From positions 1-24,444 of the IMG/VR virus record IMGVR_UViG_3300014868_000009: a DNA stretch of 24,444 nucleotides; one strand, given 5' to 3'. Made by a program: the position numbers and the translations under genes. The first letter of the stretch is position 1; each line of letters opens with the position of its first letter. Below are positions 3,978 to 23,320 of this stretch, piece after piece. The notes under the pieces were generated by a model. The model made no database searches, was not told where the DNA came from, and saw nothing but the letters and a program-made list of their open reading frames with translations. Source of the DNA: a virus.

Positions 3978-5906
3978 ATGCTCGACCGGGCCTACGCGCT
4001 GCTGTCCATCAAAGCTCTCGACGGCCCGCGCCGCACCATCACCGGGCTGGCGTCCACACCGACGCCTGACCGCCACGGCGATATCCTCGAGCCGCTGGGC
4101 GCCACGTTCCGCAATCCCCTGCCGCTGCTGCTGTATCACGACCGCGCACGGCCGATCGGCCGCGCGACGTTGACCGCGCGCCGCGACGGGATTGCGTTTG
4201 AAGCGACGCTGCCAGAGATCACGACACCCGGCACCGTGCGCGATCGCGTGGATGAGGCATGGCACAGCATCCAAGCCGGGTTGATGACCGGCGTCAGCAT
4301 CGGCTTCCGGCCGATCGGCGGCGCGGATGGTGTGAAGGCGCTGCCCTCCGGCGGGATGCACCTGTTGCGCACCGAGATCTGCGAGCTGTCGCTCGTCACG
4401 GTGCCTGCCAACGTGGAGACCACCATCCACACGATCAAAAGTTTGGACTTACCGCATTTGGCCGCGTCTGGCCTGACCTTGCCCGGCGTTGCGGGCCGCA
4501 CGAGCACGAGGCCCACCATGGCCAAACCGACGACGGCTGAACACATTCAGAACTTGGAAAACAAACGCGCCGCGTTAACCGCGCGCATGAGTGAGATCCT
4601 GCAAAGTGGCGCGGACGACGGCGCCACGCTCGCACCCGACCAGGCCGAGGAACACGACGGCCTAGCCGTGCAAGTCAAGAATCTCGAAGCCGATCTCGTG
4701 CGCTGGCGCGAGATGGAACAGATCCAGATCAAGACTGCGACGGTGGTCCCGATCACGGCGCCAACGCTGCGGCTCAACAGCTATACGGGGCAGGTCTCGG
4801 TGCGGCCGAACGTCGCGCCGGGCACCGCGTTTGTCCGCATGGCGTGCGCGAAACTGTTGGAGCGGAGCGGCCAAGTGCGCGATGCGTCGGAGTACGCGAA
4901 GCGGTGGGATGACTCCACGCCGGAAGTGTCGCTCTTCCTGAAGGCGGCCGTCGCGCCGGGCACGATTACCGATGCGACGTGGGCCGCGCCGCTGGTCAAT
5001 CAGAACATCTCGAATGAGTTCATCGAGCTGTTGCGGCCCGCTACGATCTTGGGAAAGATCCCAAATCTTCGCACGATCCCGTTCAACACAAAAGTGCCGG
5101 CGCAGTCTGCCGGAGGCTCATACGGTTGGGTAGGCGAGGCGAAACCGAAGCCGGTGACGAAGCTGGCGTTTACGTCGACGTCGTTGAGCATCACGAAGGT
5201 GGCCGGGATCATCGTGCTGACGCAGGAATTGATCAAGCTCTCGAATCCGAGCGCGGAAGCCCTGGTGCGCAATGACATGATCAAGGGCATTGCGGCTTAT
5301 CTGGACCAGCAACTGACGGATCCGGCCGTGGCCGCGGTCGCCGGCGTCAATCCCGCGTCGATCACCAACGGCGCCCCCACGGCCGCGGCGACGACGAACC
5401 CGATGGCCGACATCATGGGATTAATTTCCCATTTTTCGTCGAATAACATCCCGGTCGATGGCGTGGTGTTCATCATGTCCGCGGCCAATGCGCTGGCGCT
5501 GTCGTTCCGCAGCAATCTCGACGGGTCGCCGCAGTATCCGGGCGTCACGATCAACGGCGGGAGCTACAAGGGCCTGACGTTCATCACGTCGAATGCCGTG
5601 GGCACCAACGTGATCGCGCTGCAGCCGGATCTGATCCTGTATGCGGACGATGGCGGTGTGACGATCGACGCCTCACAGGAAGCGTCGTTGCAGATGGATA
5701 GCGCGCCGGCGTCCCCGGCCGATGCGACCACGGTCTTCGTGTCCCTCTGGCAGACCAATACGGTCGGCCTGCGGGCGGAGCGATTTGTGAATTGGCAGAA
5801 GGCCAATGCCAATGCCGTGAAATATCTGACGGCGACCGCCTGGCCGGCGCCGACCGGCGGTGTGATGGCCGCGGACGCGCCGACGGTGCGCAACGGCAAG
5901 GCCTGA
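3978..5906 (+). CDS. Fused prohead protease-major capsid protein, HK97 type
   Basis: One 642-aa frame joins three parts. Residues about 1-150 are an HK97-like prohead protease, with probable catalytic His54 (LLLYHD) and Ser107 (LMTGVSIGF) and the conserved ELSLVTVPAN at 136-145. Residues about 181-255 are a charged coiled-coil scaffold (delta-domain) segment. Residues about 280-630 are an HK97-fold major capsid protein, with a long NEFIELLRPATI helix region and motifs such as GSYGWVGEAKPKP and WQTNTVGLRAERF. The protease presumably removes itself and the scaffold during maturation. No good ribosome site precedes the ATG at 3978. An internal Met181 (4518) has one and would yield scaffold plus capsid alone. 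Such fusions are known in some phages. The capsid precedes the portal here, opposite to the usual portal-protease-capsid order. Confidence 0.94.
   Translation: MLDRAYALLSIKALDGPRRTITGLASTPTPDRHGDILEPLGATFRNPLPLLLYHDRARPIGRATLTARRDGIAFEATLPEITTPGTVRDRVDEAWHSIQAGLMTGVSIGFRPIGGADGVKALPSGGMHLLRTEICELSLVTVPANVETTIHTIKSLDLPHLAASGLTLPGVAGRTSTRPTMAKPTTAEHIQNLENKRAALTARMSEILQSGADDGATLAPDQAEEHDGLAVQVKNLEADLVRWREMEQIQIKTATVVPITAPTLRLNSYTGQVSVRPNVAPGTAFVRMACAKLLERSGQVRDASEYAKRWDDSTPEVSLFLKAAVAPGTITDATWAAPLVNQNISNEFIELLRPATILGKIPNLRTIPFNTKVPAQSAGGSYGWVGEAKPKPVTKLAFTSTSLSITKVAGIIVLTQELIKLSNPSAEALVRNDMIKGIAAYLDQQLTDPAVAAVAGVNPASITNGAPTAAATTNPMADIMGLISHFSSNNIPVDGVVFIMSAANALALSFRSNLDGSPQYPGVTINGGSYKGLTFITSNAVGTNVIALQPDLILYADDGGVTIDASQEASLQMDSAPASPADATTVFVSLWQTNTVGLRAERFVNWQKANANAVKYLTATAWPAPTGGVMAADAPTVRNGKA
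4508..4520 (+). promoter_or_regulatory. Possible internal ribosome site and start for capsid protein alone
   Basis: GAGG at 4508-4511 lies six bases before an in-frame ATG at 4518 (Met181), exactly between the protease and scaffold segments. Initiation here would make a 462-aa scaffold-capsid protein, letting the cell produce capsid in excess over protease. Confidence 0.45.
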
Positions 5907-5907
5907 C

Positions 5908-7332
5908 ATGCGGCTCTTCGGCTACGAGATCACCCGTGCCCGCCCGGCGACGGCGCTGTCGCCGCCGGCGGGCACGATGGGCGGCGGCTGGTTGCCGATC
6001 GTGCGCGAGCCGTTTACGGGCGCCTGGCAGCAGAACTACCCGCCGATCACCACGTCTTCAGCTCTCAGCTATTTTGCGGTGTACGGCTGCGTCACGTTGA
6101 TCGCGACGGACATCGGCAAGCTGCATCTACGGCTGGTCGCCGAAACGGAAGACGGCGTGTGGGAGGAGACCAGCAATCCCGCGTACTCGCCGGTCTTGCG
6201 CCAGCCGAACCACTATCAGACGGTGAACAAATTCGTCGAGCAGTGGATCACCAGCAAGCTCACCGCCGGAAACGCGTACGTGCTGAAGGAGCGCGATCAG
6301 CGCGGCGTCGTGTCGGCGCTCTACGTGCTCGACCCGCTGCGCGTGACGCCGCTGATCGCGCCCGATGGCTCGGTCTACTACGGCCTAAAGCGCGATGACC
6401 TGACCGGCGTGGGGCTCGGGCCGGATGGCGCGCAGTACGACGTGGTCGTGCCCGCGCGCGAGATCATCCACGACCCGATGGTGACGCTATTTCATCCGCT
6501 GATCGGCGTGACGCCGCTCTACGCCTGCGGCATGGCCGCGCAGATGGGTCTGACGATGCAGACGGGGAGCGAAAAGTTTTTCCGCTCCGGCGCGCATCCC
6601 GGTGGCGTGCTCACCACGCCCGAAGGCGTGAGCAAGGAACAGGTTGATCGCTGGAAGGCGGAATGGCAGGAGAAGTTCTCAGGCGCCAACGTCGGCAATG
6701 TCGCCGTGCTCAGCGGCGGGATGAAGTACGAAGCGATGACGGTGAACGCCTCCGACTCGCAGCTGATCGAACAGCTCAATTGGACGGCCGCGAACGTTTG
6801 CAGCGCGTTTCACGTCCCGCCGCAATTACTCGACATCAGTGACGCGCCGACCAGCGACCTCGAAACGCTGCTCGCCAAGTACCATTCCCAGTGTTTGCAG
6901 TCGCTGCTGGCCAACTTCGAGGCCAGCCTGGATGCCGGGCTCGAGCTGAAGTCGCCCTACGGCACCGAATTCGATCTCGATGATCTGATCTGGATGGTGA
7001 CGTCCGTCCGCGTGAAAGCCGCGGCGGATGCCATCGGCGCCGGCGCGCTCTCGCCGAATGAAGCACGCTTCAAATACTTCGGGCTGGGCAAGGTGGAAGG
7101 CGGCGATAGTCCCATGATGCAGCAGCAAAATTTCAGCCTCAAAGCTCTGGCCCAGCGGGACGCCGACAACCCGTTCAGCAAACCGGCGCCGCCGACACCC
7201 GCGCCGCCCGCCACGCCCGAACCCGAGCCTGACCCCGACGAAGACGAGCCGCCACCGGAGGAGGAAGACGAAGAGAAAGCATTTCGCGCGGCCTTCCTGA
7301 AAACGCTCGACGGGTTGTCGTATGCGGCCTGA
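5908..7332 (+). CDS. Phage portal protein, HK97 family
   Basis: The 474-aa protein has the HK97 portal pattern. This includes ALSYFAVYGCVTLIATDIGKLHLRL at about 52-76, a YVLKERD/VSALYVLDPLRVTPL beta region and the SAFHVPPQLLDISD stretch. It forms the dodecameric ring at the packaging vertex through which DNA enters and leaves. The C-terminus is unusual: residues about 424-455 are a Pro/Asp/Glu-rich acidic tail. The start lies one base after the capsid stop; the end overlaps the next gene by 11 bases. Confidence 0.95.
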   Translation: MRLFGYEITRARPATALSPPAGTMGGGWLPIVREPFTGAWQQNYPPITTSSALSYFAVYGCVTLIATDIGKLHLRLVAETEDGVWEETSNPAYSPVLRQPNHYQTVNKFVEQWITSKLTAGNAYVLKERDQRGVVSALYVLDPLRVTPLIAPDGSVYYGLKRDDLTGVGLGPDGAQYDVVVPAREIIHDPMVTLFHPLIGVTPLYACGMAAQMGLTMQTGSEKFFRSGAHPGGVLTTPEGVSKEQVDRWKAEWQEKFSGANVGNVAVLSGGMKYEAMTVNASDSQLIEQLNWTAANVCSAFHVPPQLLDISDAPTSDLETLLAKYHSQCLQSLLANFEASLDAGLELKSPYGTEFDLDDLIWMVTSVRVKAAADAIGAGALSPNEARFKYFGLGKVEGGDSPMMQQQNFSLKALAQRDADNPFSKPAPPTPAPPATPEPEPDPDEDEPPPEEEDEEKAFRAAFLKTLDGLSYAA

Positions 7333-17399: not shown

Positions 17400-17660
17400 A
17401 TGTCCACGGAGTCTGATAACACACATATTGTTGAGCCGGCCTCCGGCCGCGGCCCCGCGGTCCGGCGCCCGACCCTGCCACAAGACCCCCTCTTCCTGAC
17501 GGTCCCGGAAGCCGCCGCGCTCGTGAATGTCTGCACGTCCACGGGATGGTCCTACGTCCGGCAGGGCATCTGGCCCAGCGTGAAGATGGGCCGCACGGTG
17601 CGGATTCCCATGGCGGCCTTCCGGGCGTACATCGAGGCCCGGACGACGGGCGGGCGATGA
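17400..17660 (+). CDS. Excisionase-like helix-turn-helix DNA-binding protein
   Basis: The 86-aa protein has a polar N-terminus (1-28) and then a MerR/excisionase-type winged helix at about 31-81. LFLTVPEAAALVNVC forms the first helix region, GWSYVRQGIWPSVKMGRTVRIP carries the recognition helix and wing, and MAAFRAYIEAR the closing helix. As first gene after the promoter it is probably the operon's regulator. The fold is also used by excisionases and small phage activators; without an integrase nearby an excision role is not supported. Confidence 0.82.
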   Translation: MSTESDNTHIVEPASGRGPAVRRPTLPQDPLFLTVPEAAALVNVCTSTGWSYVRQGIWPSVKMGRTVRIPMAAFRAYIEARTTGGR

Positions 17661-17875
17661 CGCCCGCGCACATCACGGCGCTGTGTCAGCCGGAACGGAT
17701 TGAGGTCTACATCGGGCTGGGACTTGCGGCGCTCGTCGGCTATGGCGTGGGCGCGCTGTGGCCGTGGTTCAAGCGCGAGCTGTCTGAGGAAAACACGCTC
17801 CAGTGGTACGGCCGGGACCAGGAAACCGGCGCCGAGGTGCGCCGGCGCTTATTTGGAGGAAAGGACGTCACATGA
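17657..17875 (+). CDS. Small single-pass membrane protein, unknown function
   Basis: The 72-aa protein starts with ATGA overlapping the HTH gene. Residues about 17-37 form one membrane helix (VYIGLGLAALVGYGVGALW). The remainder is charged, with the ELSEENTLQWYGRDQETGAEVRRRL tail probably cytoplasmic. No family recognised. It ends in an ATGA overlap with the next gene. Confidence 0.65.
   Translation: MTPAHITALCQPERIEVYIGLGLAALVGYGVGALWPWFKRELSEENTLQWYGRDQETGAEVRRRLFGGKDVT
17855..17865 (+). promoter_or_regulatory. Shine-Dalgarno region deciding the start of the 189-aa protein
   Basis: GGAGGAAAGGA precedes the ATG at 17872 by six bases. This supports that start over an in-frame upstream ATG at 17803, which would run over the membrane protein gene. 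Confidence 0.65.
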
Positions 17876-18441
17876 CCACACGCGTCACGATCAATCGGGC
17901 GGCGAAGCCCGCGCCGCCGTGGGCCGTCGCATTGGCGAAGCTCACGCAACTGGAAGCCACCGTTTCGGAAGGCACACGGAAGTCATTGGAGGCTCGCTGG
18001 CGTTTCGGGCGTGAGCTTGCGAGCCGTCGCGTGGACTACAAGGGCAAGCACGTAATCCCGGCGGATCTCAAAACACTCGTCATGGAGCAATGCCGGGTGA
18101 GTAATTCGGAGCTTCAAAAGCGGGTGAAATTCGCAGAGCGATATCCGACGAAAGAGCTAATGTGTAACGCCGTTACACATTATCCATCCTGGCATCAACT
18201 GACGAAGGAAGGTTTGAACGACAAGTCGAAGGCCAAGCCGAAGGCGAAAGCAGTAAAAGTGCGTACCGATCCGAAATGGATCGTCGCCAAGTTAAAGCAG
18301 CAGCTCGTCACGGCTTTTACGCATCACGCCACGCTGACCCGTAATCAAGTCGCAGATTTAGAAGACCTGCACGCCACGTTGGCGGCCATCCTCGCGCGGC
18401 TCGATCAGAACGATGCGGAGAAAGCCGATCGCGCGTCATGA
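17872..18441 (+). CDS. Unknown 189-aa basic protein partnered with GHKL ATPase
   Basis: No family recognised with confidence. Residues about 30-115 read as a helical domain: WRFGRELASRRVDYKGKHVIP, then MEQCRVSNSELQKRVKFAERYPTKELMCNAVTHYPSW. This pattern of small HTH-like step followed by an aligned Tyr-Pro and Ser-Trp is seen in several poorly described phage and plasmid proteins. Residues about 120-140 are a Lys/Ala-rich linker, and the C-terminus is a helix probably forming a coiled coil. A DNA-binding adaptor is plausible. The gene is lower in G+C than its neighbours: bases 18121-18180 are 29/60 G+C, against 46/60 for 20341-20400. It contains a 25-base inverted repeat. ATGA couples it to the ATPase gene downstream. 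Confidence 0.7.
   Translation: MTTRVTINRAAKPAPPWAVALAKLTQLEATVSEGTRKSLEARWRFGRELASRRVDYKGKHVIPADLKTLVMEQCRVSNSELQKRVKFAERYPTKELMCNAVTHYPSWHQLTKEGLNDKSKAKPKAKAVKVRTDPKWIVAKLKQQLVTAFTHHATLTRNQVADLEDLHATLAAILARLDQNDAEKADRAS
18158..18182. repeat. 25-base perfect inverted repeat inside the 189-aa gene
   Basis: Arm TAATGTGTAACG (18158-18169), one central C, and its exact reverse complement CGTTACACATTA (18171-18182). It encodes residues near LMCNAVTHY. It can act as a dimeric repressor site in DNA or as a strong 12-pair RNA stem, though the one-base spacer makes a hairpin strained, favouring a DNA site. Confidence 0.8.
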
Positions 18442-19895
18442 GAGCGCAACCAACGGCTCGTATCCTGCTCACCATTCGCAATCGGTCCTGGACGGCGCAT
18501 CAGGCGTTAGCCGAGCTGGTTGACAATGCCTTCGGCGAAAAGCGTGGTCGGGCCTCTCACGTGCGGATCGCGTGGTCTCCGAAATGCCGGATGCTGACCA
18601 TCCTTGATGATGGGCAAGGCATGACCGATGTGCTCGATCTGTTTACGCTCGGCCAAGGGACGGAGAGCGGTGGGCAGGATATTGGACTCTACGGTGTGGG
18701 CGGATCGGAAGCGTTGTTGTGGTTGGCGGATTACGCCGAGGTCACGACACTCCGTGAAGGGCGTGTGTCACGCGGGAAAGCGGACTGGGCGAAGTGCATC
18801 GAGCGGCAGCAATTCCCGGACATCAATAATCGCTGGCGTGACGCGACGGTGGCGACCTGCCCGACAGACCTTTTGGAACTCGGACACGGGACGGGAATTG
18901 CCTTGCGCCTTCGCCCGCGTCTGCAAATCCATTCAGAGTTAATTCAAGAAAAGCTCTCACGCTTATTTGCCGTCGCGTTGCGGACGAATCGTCACATCAC
19001 GTGGACGACGCTTGAGCCGCACGTTGCGATGCAACATCTGCATGCGTGGACACCTGGTGAATTACAGGATGTCTGCAGCGGAACAGTGACGCTGGCGAAC
19101 GGCTTAGCGGCGACATTCACCGCGGGCCGCGTGGACGGACTCTCGATTGCGAATTCCAAACTGTCGGTGAATTACGTCTATCGCCAGATTAAGGAAACGA
19201 CGGCCGGTTTCGGCCGCCCGGTGCAAGGCGCGTGCGGGCATGTTGATTTGTCCGGCGAGTGGCTGCGCTACCTGACGACGACGAAGGACGACATTCAGGA
19301 GGACGGGCGAGAGTATGAGACGACGTTGATGGCGGAGATTGCGAAACAACTCAAGCCGTTAGTCGATCAACTCGCCGCAGCGAAACGCGCCAAAATCTTC
19401 AGCAATATCCGCATCAATCTTAAGCAGAAGCTGGAGCATGGATTCAAAGTGTTGGCGCCGCGGGGCCGGACGGGCGGATCCGGGTCTGAGCCTGGATCGG
19501 GCGGGGAGCCGCGGCCACGTCTTCCGCCGCGGCCACAGATTCATGCAGCTGTTGTGGACATCCTCGAAGTCGGCGATCAAGACGTGAACGGCGTCTTGTG
19601 CCGGGCAATCATGACGGAGACCGGGATTACGGCATTTGTCAACAAGGATCACGCGTTGATTGTAAAGGCGTTAGAGGCCGAACCTGTCAACCAAATGCTC
19701 TTGGAACAAGTCCTGATCGCGGCGTTGGCGAAGGAAATCATGGAGGCCGATGCGTTGGTCACGTTTGGCCTGCTCTCGCAACGGGATGCCGATGCGTTGT
19801 TCGAACATTACGACGGGAACACGTGGGATGTCTTTCTACATGTGATCCGTGTGCTTACCGACGGTATTGAATCGACGACGGAGGTCGCCCCATGA
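18438..19895 (+). CDS. GHKL ATPase, MORC/MutL-like
   Basis: The 485-aa protein has the Bergerat ATP-binding fold at residues about 1-200. The N box ALAELVDNAFG carries Glu26, Asp29 and Asn30. The G1 box is LDDGQGM (Asp57-Met62). The G2 box is GLYGVGGSEA at 83-92. A second lobe (about 200-340) ends near a TTTKDD motif whose Lys283 is placed like the phosphate-contacting lysine of GHKL enzymes. A Gly/Pro-rich linker (about 343-371) leads to a C-terminal helical domain of unknown function. Such ATPases clamp or remodel DNA or other proteins on ATP binding. Comparative genomics has linked prokaryotic MORC/MutL relatives to restriction-modification systems. The gene is lower in G+C than its surroundings and forms an ATGA-coupled pair with the 189-aa gene. 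Confidence 0.88.
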   Translation: MRAQPTARILLTIRNRSWTAHQALAELVDNAFGEKRGRASHVRIAWSPKCRMLTILDDGQGMTDVLDLFTLGQGTESGGQDIGLYGVGGSEALLWLADYAEVTTLREGRVSRGKADWAKCIERQQFPDINNRWRDATVATCPTDLLELGHGTGIALRLRPRLQIHSELIQEKLSRLFAVALRTNRHITWTTLEPHVAMQHLHAWTPGELQDVCSGTVTLANGLAATFTAGRVDGLSIANSKLSVNYVYRQIKETTAGFGRPVQGACGHVDLSGEWLRYLTTTKDDIQEDGREYETTLMAEIAKQLKPLVDQLAAAKRAKIFSNIRINLKQKLEHGFKVLAPRGRTGGSGSEPGSGGEPRPRLPPRPQIHAAVVDILEVGDQDVNGVLCRAIMTETGITAFVNKDHALIVKALEAEPVNQMLLEQVLIAALAKEIMEADALVTFGLLSQRDADALFEHYDGNTWDVFLHVIRVLTDGIESTTEVAP

Positions 19896-20638
19896 CGGAG
19901 ACCGATCTCATGACCATCGACGCGCAGACCGGCGAAGCGATCGCCACGCTGACGCTGCGCGAAGCCCCCTTCGAGACCTTAGCCGCGGCGCAGCAGGCGG
20001 CCGTCGCGCTGCAAGATGTGATTCGCCGCAAGAAGAATCCCGTCATGTTCGGCGGCGAACAGTATCTCGAATTCGAGGACTGGCAGACCGTCGGCCGGTT
20101 CTACGGCGTCACGTCCAAAGCCGTCAGCGTGGACCCGATCACGATCGGCGGCGTGCATGGCTTCAAAGCGGTCGCCGTGGCGCAGCTCGTGGACGGCCGC
20201 GCGATCAGCCGCGCCGAGTCGCTGTGCATGAGCGACGAAGCCAACTGGGCACACAAGCCGCTGTATCAGCTCGCCAGCATGGCGCAGACGCGGGCGTGCG
20301 CGAAGTCGCTGCGGAACGTGCTGGCGTGGGTCGTGGTCTTAGCCGGCTACCGTGCCACGCCGGCGGAGGAGCTGCAGGGGACGGCCGCCCCGTCGCGTAA
20401 GTCCCAGCCGGCCGTGCGGCCCGCGGCGCCGCTGCTGATCTCGAAGATGCAGCGGGACTATTTCGTCGAGCTGGTGGCGAAACACCCGGCGTGGTCCGAG
20501 GCGGAAGTCAAAGCCCTGCTGAAGCAGCACGACGTCCCGCACTCGTCGAAGATGCCGATCGCCAAGTTTGATCTGCTCTGTCAAGCCATCGAGGCCGGGC
20601 CGTCGGTCGCCCTGGCGGATGTCCTGCCGTCAGAGTAA
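19892..20638 (+). CDS. Conserved phage protein, possible Rad52-like DNA annealing protein
   Basis: The 248-aa protein has a conserved core at about 40-160. QYLEFEDWQTVGRFYGV is followed by a beta hairpin (GFKAVAVAQLVDGRAISRAES), then SDEANWAHKPLYQLASMAQTRACAKSLRNVLAWVVVLAGY. This pattern recurs in phage proteins at this place in early operons. Residues about 160-182 are a Pro/Ala/Arg-rich linker, and about 183-235 a small helical C-terminal domain. A beta-hairpin core of this type plus position beside replication genes suggest a single-strand annealing (recombination) role, but I could not confirm any known family. Start is an ATGA overlap with the ATPase gene. Confidence 0.55.
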   Translation: MTETDLMTIDAQTGEAIATLTLREAPFETLAAAQQAAVALQDVIRRKKNPVMFGGEQYLEFEDWQTVGRFYGVTSKAVSVDPITIGGVHGFKAVAVAQLVDGRAISRAESLCMSDEANWAHKPLYQLASMAQTRACAKSLRNVLAWVVVLAGYRATPAEELQGTAAPSRKSQPAVRPAAPLLISKMQRDYFVELVAKHPAWSEAEVKALLKQHDVPHSSKMPIAKFDLLCQAIEAGPSVALADVLPSE

Positions 20639-20649
20639 GAGGCGCGCGT

Positions 20650-21303
20650 ATGGCTCGACCTGGGCTCTTCTCCCATCGGAAGTTCCGCCAACTCGCCCGC
20701 GCGTTGAATGACGAGGCGCTGGCGGTCGGCACGCTGGAATGCCTCTGGTACGTCGCGGGCGAGACGTGCGACCCGCGGATCGGCGATGACCGCGACGTGG
20801 AGATTGCGGCGCGCTGGAAAGGAGCGCCCGGCGTGCTGGTGCCGGCGCTGGTGGCCGCCGGCTTCCTGGACCGTGACGCCGAGTCGTACGTCGTGCACCA
20901 CTTCTGGGACCATGCGCCGGCCTACGTGCTGAAGCGCCGGGTGCGCGAAGCCCAGCGCCGCACCGCCAGCCACCGGAACGGAACAGAAGTGGCTGAGGTG
21001 TTCGGCCGTACGTCCAGACACACGGACGACCACTCGTCCGGCCGAACAGCCGGACAAACGGCCGCCGTTAGGGCAGACGTACGGACAACAGCAGATCAGA
21101 GCAGTTCAGAGCAGAACAGAGCAGAAGATCAAGAGCCTCCGTACGCACGTGATCAACCGGCCTCCCCCCCTGTGCGGTCAGGGCACAAACCCAAACACCA
21201 GCCCAGAACCACGGGCGCGTGGAAGTGTCCGCACATCCCGATGTGCGCCAGTTACACGGCCTGCATCGATCGCACCCTGGACGACGCCAATGCACGCAGC
21301 TAG
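20650..21303 (+). CDS. Replication-type protein with N-terminal helical domain and Cys/His tail
   Basis: The 217-aa protein begins MARPGLFSHRKFRQLARALN and continues with AVGTLECLWYVAGE, GVLVPALVAAGFLDRDAE and VVHHFWDHAPAYVLKRR. This N-terminal domain is typical of phage proteins in the replication position that resemble replisome-organiser winged helices. Residues about 115-190 are a low-complexity linker whose DNA holds iteron-like repeats and a hairpin. Cys193, His195, Cys199 and Cys205 may bind zinc. A ribosome site, AAGAGG, lies seven bases before the ATG. Function as initiator or helicase-loader is inferred, not shown. Confidence 0.6.
   Translation: MARPGLFSHRKFRQLARALNDEALAVGTLECLWYVAGETCDPRIGDDRDVEIAARWKGAPGVLVPALVAAGFLDRDAESYVVHHFWDHAPAYVLKRRVREAQRRTASHRNGTEVAEVFGRTSRHTDDHSSGRTAGQTAAVRADVRTTADQSSSEQNRAEDQEPPYARDQPASPPVRSGHKPKHQPRTTGAWKCPHIPMCASYTACIDRTLDDANARS
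21006..21130. repeat. Iteron-like repeats and hairpin, candidate replication origin
   Basis: Four 10-base units start at 21091, 21101, 21111 and 21121. The first three match GCAGNNCAGA exactly; the fourth is partial. Upstream are a 7-pair hairpin (GTCCGGC at 21036-21042 with GCCGGAC at 21049-21055) and a pair of inverted 9-mers (CCGTACGTC at 21006-21014; GACGTACGG at 21076-21084). All lie in the linker of the replication-type gene, the arrangement of lambda's origin within gene O. Confidence 0.45.
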
Positions 21304-22192: not shown

Positions 22193-22373
22193 CGACCTGC
22201 GGACCCAACGCCTTGACCTGCCGCGGTCGCTGCACGTCTCGTCCGCACATGCGCCGAAACCCGTGCGCCGCGTGGTGCCCCTCACCGAGCCGCCGCGCGT
22301 CGTCACGTATGATGGCCGCGAATTCGTGGTGATGTTCGATGGCGTAGACCACCACACCGTGCAGGACGCCTGA
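22185..22373 (+). CDS. Unknown 62-aa phage protein
   Basis: Starts at the ATG at 22185, overlapping the previous gene by eight bases; an upstream in-frame ATG at 22089 lies deep in that gene. The sequence has a basic/Pro-rich start and a C-terminal beta segment (PRVVTYDGREFVVMFDGVD). No family recognised. Its stop overlaps the methyltransferase start (TGATG). Confidence 0.55.
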   Translation: MADDLRTQRLDLPRSLHVSSAHAPKPVRRVVPLTEPPRVVTYDGREFVVMFDGVDHHTVQDA

Positions 22374-23320
22374 TGCTGGTGCAGGCCGACGCGCGCGCGC
22401 TGCCCTTGCGGGACGGGTGCGTGCAATGCGTCGTCACGTCGCCGCCGTACTGGGGGCTGCGCGACTACGGCATCGCCGGGCAGATTGGCCTCGAAGCCAC
22501 GCCGGAGGCCTACGTCGCCACGCTGGTGCAGGTGTTCCGCGAGGTGCGGCGCGTGCTGAAGGACGACGGCACGGTGTGGCTCGTGCTCGGGGATTCCTAC
22601 GCTGCCGGAAAGTTAGGACGCGCGGACACCGGGCCGGCAGACATCGCCCGCCGCGCGGCGCTGTATGGGACGGGGAACGGTAACGGGCAAGGGCCGCGAG
22701 AATTTCGGCAGCGTTCAGCGCCTGATGGCCTGAAGCCCAAGGATCTCGTCGGCATCCCGTGGCGCGTGGCGTTCGCGCTGCAAGCGGACGGCTGGTATCT
22801 CCGCAGCGACATCATCTGGCACAAGCCGAACCCGATGCCTGAGTCGGTGACGGACCGCCCGACGAAGGCGCACGAATACCTGTTCCTGCTGACGAAGGCC
22901 GCGCGGTATTTCTACGATGCGGACGCTATCGCGGAGTCGTCAGTTACCGGCGTGCATACGCGCGATCGGTTATCGACGTTCAAAAAATCTGGCGTGAGCG
23001 GGAATCATCATCAAGGGGCATCCCTCGTCCAATGCAACGGAACACGGAATAAGCGCAGCGTATGGACGATCGCCACTCGTAGTTATCCTGAAGCGCATTT
23101 TGCGACCTTCCCCGAGGCGTTGATCGAGCCGTGCATCCTGGCCGGCAGTCGGCCCGGCGATGTAGTGCTCGACCCGTTCGGCGGGACGGCAACGGTCGTG
23201 CGCGTGGCGCGGCGGCTGAACCGCGAGGGGATCGCCTGCGACCTGAACCCGCAGTACCTCGCGCTGGCCGAAGACCGGATTACCGAGGTGCAGCCGTCGT
23301 TGCTGCATGTAGGCGCCTGA
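22373..23320 (+). CDS. DNA methyltransferase, probably N4-cytosine type
   Basis: The 315-aa protein is a beta-class amino-methyltransferase. TSPPYW at 22-27 is the catalytic motif; the Ser form suggests N4-cytosine. DPFGGTATV at about 267-275 forms part of the S-adenosylmethionine site. A variable target-recognition region lies at about 80-240. Part of it (near 22930-23070) is visibly lower in G+C than the flanks, as if the recognition domain had been exchanged. No cognate restriction enzyme adjoins, so this looks like an orphan methyltransferase protecting phage DNA. Confidence 0.92.
   Translation: MLVQADARALPLRDGCVQCVVTSPPYWGLRDYGIAGQIGLEATPEAYVATLVQVFREVRRVLKDDGTVWLVLGDSYAAGKLGRADTGPADIARRAALYGTGNGNGQGPREFRQRSAPDGLKPKDLVGIPWRVAFALQADGWYLRSDIIWHKPNPMPESVTDRPTKAHEYLFLLTKAARYFYDADAIAESSVTGVHTRDRLSTFKKSGVSGNHHQGASLVQCNGTRNKRSVWTIATRSYPEAHFATFPEALIEPCILAGSRPGDVVLDPFGGTATVVRVARRLNREGIACDLNPQYLALAEDRITEVQPSLLHVGA

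Follow-up and report, generated by a model that had tools for sequence, protein, structure and literature searches.

A palindrome kept inside the gene for a putative DNA reader that adjoins a MORC-like phage ATPase

The gene for P0001, a 189-aa protein encoded directly upstream of the GHKL ATPase P0002 in a phage operon, carries a perfect 25-bp palindrome that is kept beyond the demands of protein coding. Because palindromes recur at the same spot in related genes, with changing letters and kept symmetry, the sequences suggest a family in which the DNA target of the protein lies within the gene that encodes it. The best explanation of the whole, to which we give a probability of about 0.45, is that P0001 would serve as an address reader on its own palindrome and P0002 as a clamp, in a control, exclusion or counter-defence role.

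The pair lies in the 24,444-nt window (the whole stretch of viral DNA analyzed), with P0001 at 17872–18441 and the 485-aa P0002 at 18438–19895, both on the + strand. Both reading frames were found again together with the ATGA overlap by which the first-pass annotation had joined them. ATGA overlaps also tie the pair to the preceding gene (at 17872) and to the following gene (at 19892), and thus coupling alone does not mark P0001 and P0002 as a two-gene unit. The preceding gene (17657–17875, + strand) encodes a 72-aa protein with a hydrophobic segment predicted by eye and no confident family in Pfam and PHROG searches; the following gene (19892–20638, + strand) encodes a 248-aa protein of phrog_19042 (E = 2.2e-18), a group without assigned function, which we would guess to be annealing-protein-like. 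An excisionase-like HTH_17 gene heads the operon (17400–17660, + strand; Pfam HTH_17 2.3e-9, phrog_66 6.7e-8), and a replication-initiation-like protein is encoded at 20650–21303 (+ strand; phrog_9474, E = 2.2e-16). Small proteins with a hydrophobic segment directly flank the pair in the window (17657–17875) and in the related locus L037 (6512–6670). The window also encodes two N6/N4 DNA methylases, at 1–1113 and 22373–23320, the first with a ParB-like N-terminal part (phrog_498, phrog_8071). The lower G+C content noted earlier for the pair was reproduced exactly as counted (29/60 at 18121–18180 and 46/60 at 20341–20400) and amounts to 58.0% for the pair against 67.1 ± 2.0% (minimum 63.4%) for other segments of equal size; the low spot at 18121–18180 coincides with the palindrome.

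The palindrome, TAATGTGTAACG-C-CGTTACACATTA, was found by a repeat scan at 18158–18182 (a feature without strand, and the candidate P0001 site), where it is present as a single copy in the window; nothing else stood out beside it in a scan of the whole operon. None of 200 synonymous shuffles of the P0001 gene matched it. The P0001 family comprises seven known genes, and in all seven the best palindrome lies at homologous codons, reaching 28 bp in L005 and 33 bp in L033, with one mismatch in L037 and L035 and in imperfect form in the Gordonia phages Malisha and Squiddly. With 200 synonymous shuffles per gene, the palindrome was reached 0 to 2 times in five of the seven genes, those of Malisha (66/200) and Squiddly (18/200) not being significant alone, and the same test returned no significant palindrome for any of eight ATPase genes or eight control genes. 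Between L005 and L037, a 1-bp gap at the palindrome center is balanced by a 1-bp gap after the right arm, such that the DNA palindrome is kept and the reading frame of the right arm is shifted (NAVTHFP to NMLDTSR). The synonymous shuffles and this frame shift together rule out an explanation by amino acid sequence. Our literature search, which covered open-access papers, returned no report of the intragenic palindrome.

What kind of protein would read such a site? Profile searches link P0001, weakly but consistently, to the DUF1016 N-terminal (YhcG) domain as a distant relative: the PADLOC profile PDC-S02 matches P0001 weakly (E = 1.6e-4), hhalign against the DUF1016_N alignment gives E = 7e-5 at a probability of 62%, and the L037 relative has a weak Pfam match to DUF1016_N (0.04), P0001 itself having no match to that Pfam entry (PF17761). 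The DUF1016_N-like domain spans approximately residues 18–116 and is followed by a basic linker and a C-terminal helical hairpin (134–150 and 157–188) in a model of pLDDT 75.5. P0001 ends in this hairpin, and neither the Pfam search nor the model showed a C-terminal PD-(D/E)XK nuclease domain. Comparison of the model with solved structures gave chance helical matches only, no ParB match was seen in Pfam or PHROG, and a plasmid search found no P0001-type domain. MT-A70-type methylases of Malisha, Squiddly, L033, and L035 begin with the same type of domain, the MT-A70 match itself having been computed for Malisha. As its companions include a methylase, a nuclease family, and an ATPase of clamp type, the domain is most plausibly a DNA reader, which agrees, on sequence grounds, with the first-pass proposal that the 189-aa protein is the DNA-recognizing partner. 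Two other neighbors of family ATPases, gp95 of Mycobacterium phage Bobby and P0009 of L007, were considered as P0001 relatives and rejected, as BLASTP showed no relation.

The palindrome is also found in DUF1016 genes proper. E. coli yhcG (L050, 5828–6955), chosen as a control, carries a 33-bp palindrome within this domain as well. Among 30 DUF1016_N genes (L058–L087), drawn from the best-scoring end of the family in one phylum (that of G005) with close relatives included, 17 have a significant palindrome (p ≤ 1/100), compared with 2 of 48 other ORFs of the same loci. The center falls at one fixed place in approximately 20 of the 30, usually exactly four codons before a conserved L[SP]W. For 22 distinct odd-centered sites, a site's own arms pair at 12.05 of 13 positions, compared with 6.15 of 13 for arms taken from different genes, and none of 20,000 permutations was as good (maximum 201 versus 265 observed). 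All 13 positions show more than one Watson-Crick pair across these sites, such that arm letters change and complementarity is kept. A yhcG-type site is present in 3376 of 5426 E. coli genomes, approximately one per genome, and lies throughout in yhcG or a DUF1016 gene among the matches listed. We regard as tentative, and somewhat short of an even chance, the broader proposition that DUF1016_N-type proteins are a self-addressing family, in which the gene would carry, at a set position within the sequence coding for the DNA-binding domain, the palindrome its product recognizes, site and protein would co-diverge, and one reader domain would serve different effectors (nuclease, methylase, or GHKL clamp).

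Template-switch correction at quasi-palindromes can alone maintain arm complementarity and could do so here, raising the question of whether the palindrome is a functionless trace of a protein-coding palindromic repeat or of hairpin-templated mutation. In L061 and L083, the best palindrome is elsewhere in the DUF1016 domain (near YhcG position 70) and encodes a similar peptide in each (LQTVSAEL and LQTLSSQL), as if the site had moved, which would suit such a trace, as would the precedent of protein-coding palindromes from Rickettsia, mentioned in PMC4316617. We nevertheless consider this origin improbable, given that the codon position of the palindrome is largely constant across families ranging from phages to E. 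coli, that arms of varying sequence still pair better than in any of the 20,000 permutations, and that there is one copy in the window and roughly one per E. coli genome. The fixed position argues that template switching does not account for everything. A palindrome could also act in the message rather than in the DNA, as an mRNA hairpin controlling translation or stability of the P0001–P0002 transcript, and RNA folding indeed predicts a strong hairpin at all four sites folded (z from −1.6 to −3.7). However, the centers of 0, 1, or 3 bases resemble those of dimer sites, and the mismatches on the coding strand show no G-U-type excess (C-A 5, G-A 2, T-G 2, and A-A 1 at positions 2–11 of the 22 sites). 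These small numbers lean toward a DNA site, and we hold the hairpin to be rather unlikely.

The ATPase itself belongs to the GHKL superfamily, with the N box (E26, D29, and N30 in ELVDN), G1 box (DDGQGM, 57–62), and G2 box (GLYGVGG, 83–89) intact as first described, a Pfam HATPase_c_3 match of E = 1.5e-9, and the box residues E26, D29-N30, D57-G59-G61, and G86-G88 present in the family alignment. The GHKL domain (approximately residues 1–190) is followed by an S5 transducer whose K283 is invariant in the family alignments, a long helix (288–335), a disordered linker (341–368), and a conserved C-terminal domain (approximately 370–476); linker and C-terminal domain are common to the family, as are the GHKL boxes and S5. 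The best fold match for the GHKL-S5 part of the predicted model (pLDDT 80.7) is MORC3 (Z 23.3, rmsd 3.0, 289 residues), followed by SMCHD1 (Z 23.1), MORC2 (22.8), HSP90 (20.8), and GyrB (18.7), where values within 1 of each other count as tied. The top three thus bear out the assignment to the MORC/MutL type made from the sequence. The signature described for the MORC S5 domain, GhXhhpXXRhl (PMC2292703), had no match in its strict form in the 10 family members scanned, nine of which have a looser [YF]xxRxI motif. Because the strict signature is absent, we describe the P0002 family, on the strength of modeled folds, as a MORC-like or paraMORC-like phage family and not as MORC.

Full-length relatives of P0002 are rare. 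Eleven distinct members or loci were found (Bobby gp96 and IMG/VR loci, several on virus records that are fragments), approximately 21–31% identical to P0002, and gp96 is the sole relative in 50,697 phage records. Viral scans with P0001 or P0002 as a single-protein query gave no matches, a genome scan with the ATPase profile gave distant GHKL proteins only, and no full-length family member turned up when whole genomes sampled from three phyla, the ones to which G004, G005, and G003 belong, were searched; a plasmid search gave one weak match. In the L037 ATPase (4986–6515), ELIANS replaces ELVDNS with loss of the aspartate, and ATP hydrolysis may be altered. Another GHKL family, distinct from that of P0002, is encoded in L039 (2347–3885) and L040 (3223–4755), phages that appear T4-like; by sequence reading, nearby genes resemble those for a single-strand-binding protein of the gp32 type and a recombinase of the UvsX/RecA type.

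In three phages (window, L005, and L037), the ATPase gene is immediately preceded by a P0001-type gene that overlaps or abuts it, and the L005 and L037 pairs are approximately 30% identical to the window pair. Adjacency is therefore kept in every ATPase locus that has a P0001-type gene, and the earlier description of P0001 as the ATPase's partner stands for these three. It does not extend to other loci, in which an unrelated ParB-like protein is used: seven have such a partner (Bobby gp95, L006, L008, L009, L010, L012, and L044), adjoining the ATPase except in L006, where one gene intervenes, and those of L006, L008, L010, L044, and Bobby match the ParB N-terminal domain. In L007, the neighbor is the unrelated 239-aa P0009, without known family. 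A DNA-binding-type gene is thus adjacent or one gene away in 10 of 11 ATPase loci, and because the other loci have the unrelated ParB-like partner, the constant feature is a DNA-binding partner rather than a P0001-type protein. L006, with its ParB-like partner, groups with the three P0001-type members in one well-supported clade (99/97), which suggests that partners have been exchanged between ATPase loci; the tree also allows one origin per partner type.

Palindromes in partner genes of other types are less regular. They are clearly significant only in L044 and L007, marginal in L008 and L012, and not significant in L006, L009, L010, and Bobby. The best palindrome of four ParB-like genes is in the linker before the HTH (L044, 4066–4093; L008, 3380–3405; L012, 6720–6743; L009, 1914–1929), that of L044 (0/200) being the only clearly significant one among ParB-like partners, and the P0009 gene contains two perfect palindromes with 11- and 10-bp arms (4581–4602 and 4740–4760). 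Intragenic operators are a known phenomenon, and the palindrome lies within the transcribed region upstream of P0002, so that P0001 might be an autorepressor with an intragenic operator and P0002 might act on its own, be it as a chaperone-like factor or a counter-defence protein. The ATPase, however, adjoins different DNA-binding partners on the same strand, suggesting joint action, and we think separate roles fairly unlikely.

The module appears as an accessory element. Relative to phage Minerva, gp93–97 of Bobby, which include the ParB-like and ATPase genes, are a 3487-bp insertion at the boundary that separates the esterase gene from the one following it, and this stretch is held by 1 of 50 related records. 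The G+C content of the module is approximately 7 to 9 points below its surroundings in the window, L005, and L037 and 3 to 4 points below in L007, L010, and L012; that of L006 is not lower. Because the Bobby module is an accessory insertion, the pair is likelier to act in exclusion or conflict than in core replication. The neighbors of the window pair are recombination- and replication-type genes that suit ordinary DNA metabolism, and we count this against our explanation: the phrog_19042 gene adjoins the pair, the replication-initiation-like gene is close by, and YqaJ-like exonuclease genes were read from sequence near the L007 and L010 ATPases. The pair could accordingly be an ordinary phage helper of recombination or replication, a MutL- or topoisomerase-like clamp that aids strand annealing and initiation. 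We judge this unlikely, if worth keeping in view, for a family so rare and patchy among phage records, missing from 49 of 50 records in the Bobby comparison, and in most loci of a G+C content below that of the surrounding genes. Neither protein was found to belong to a well-described family with an ordinary replication role.

We infer the binding of P0001 to the palindrome, the clamp action of P0002, the interaction of the two proteins, and their biological role. A P0001 dimer would bind the 25-bp palindrome carried in its own gene and load or anchor P0002, which would close around DNA when ATP binds. The closed clamp would then mark, compact, or block the phage's own DNA or that of a related element bearing this site. 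Since the module is accessory and can change its partner, we would expect it to serve less in core replication than in control, exclusion, or counter-defence along rIIA/rIIB lines. The persistence of the palindrome from phages to E. coli yhcG makes it cheap to ask directly, for a widespread uncharacterized family, whether its proteins bind their own genes. If the family were self-addressing, related mobile elements could recognize one another by a built-in tag.

Several known systems resemble the pair in part, and we do not assign it to the rIIA, MORC, ParABS, or MZA families. MORC and paraMORC proteins (PMC2292703) share the GHKL and S5 domains with the conserved lysine, and MORC/SMCHD1 are the best fold match, but P0002 lacks the strict signature and is phage-borne with a DNA-binding partner. 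The restriction nuclease or superfamily II helicase of that comparison was not seen beside P0002 in the window, where the HTH_17, phrog_19042, replication-initiation-like, and methylase genes are found instead and do not make up a restriction-type operon. DUF1016/YhcG proteins (PF17761 with PD-(D/E)XK; PDC-S02) share with P0001 a remotely related N-domain and the position of the intragenic palindrome, but in P0001 the nuclease domain is missing and the neighboring partner is a GHKL ATPase. ParABS is comparable in concept, with its DNA-binding loader, cis palindrome, and ATPase, and ParB-like proteins replace P0001 in related phages; however, P0001 has no ParB match and the ATPase is GHKL rather than ParA (Walker). 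MZA (MzaB) and Shedu paraMORC3 are likewise conflict-system GHKL ATPases, with weak MzaB matches to P0002 (0.0059) and the L008 ATPase (6.5e-6), but P0002 scores 15 bits against an NCBIfam MzaB cutoff of 850 and has no PADLOC match, and neither the MZA partner genes nor the DUF4263 nuclease was seen at its locus. The closest functional analogue, as far as analogy reaches, is T4 rIIA/rIIB, a phage pair in which rIIA is a GHKL ATPase (HATPase_c_3 1.6e-4) and rIIB carries an N-terminal HTH, the two being described respectively as the center of a poorly understood phage counter-defence system and as a transcription factor (PMC7824862). P0002 matches predicted RIIA models over the shared GHKL-S5 part only, rIIA is 725 aa and is not found by tblastn with P0002, rIIB matches HTH families in Pfam and P0001 does not, and the rIIB gene has no palindrome scoring above 6. 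Together with the Bobby insertion, this analogy suggests a possible counter-defence or exclusion role for the pair. Among phage pairs of a GHKL ATPase and a DNA-binding partner is the long-unexplained rIIA/rIIB; P0001–P0002 is more compact and displays a candidate target site, which makes its mechanism testable.
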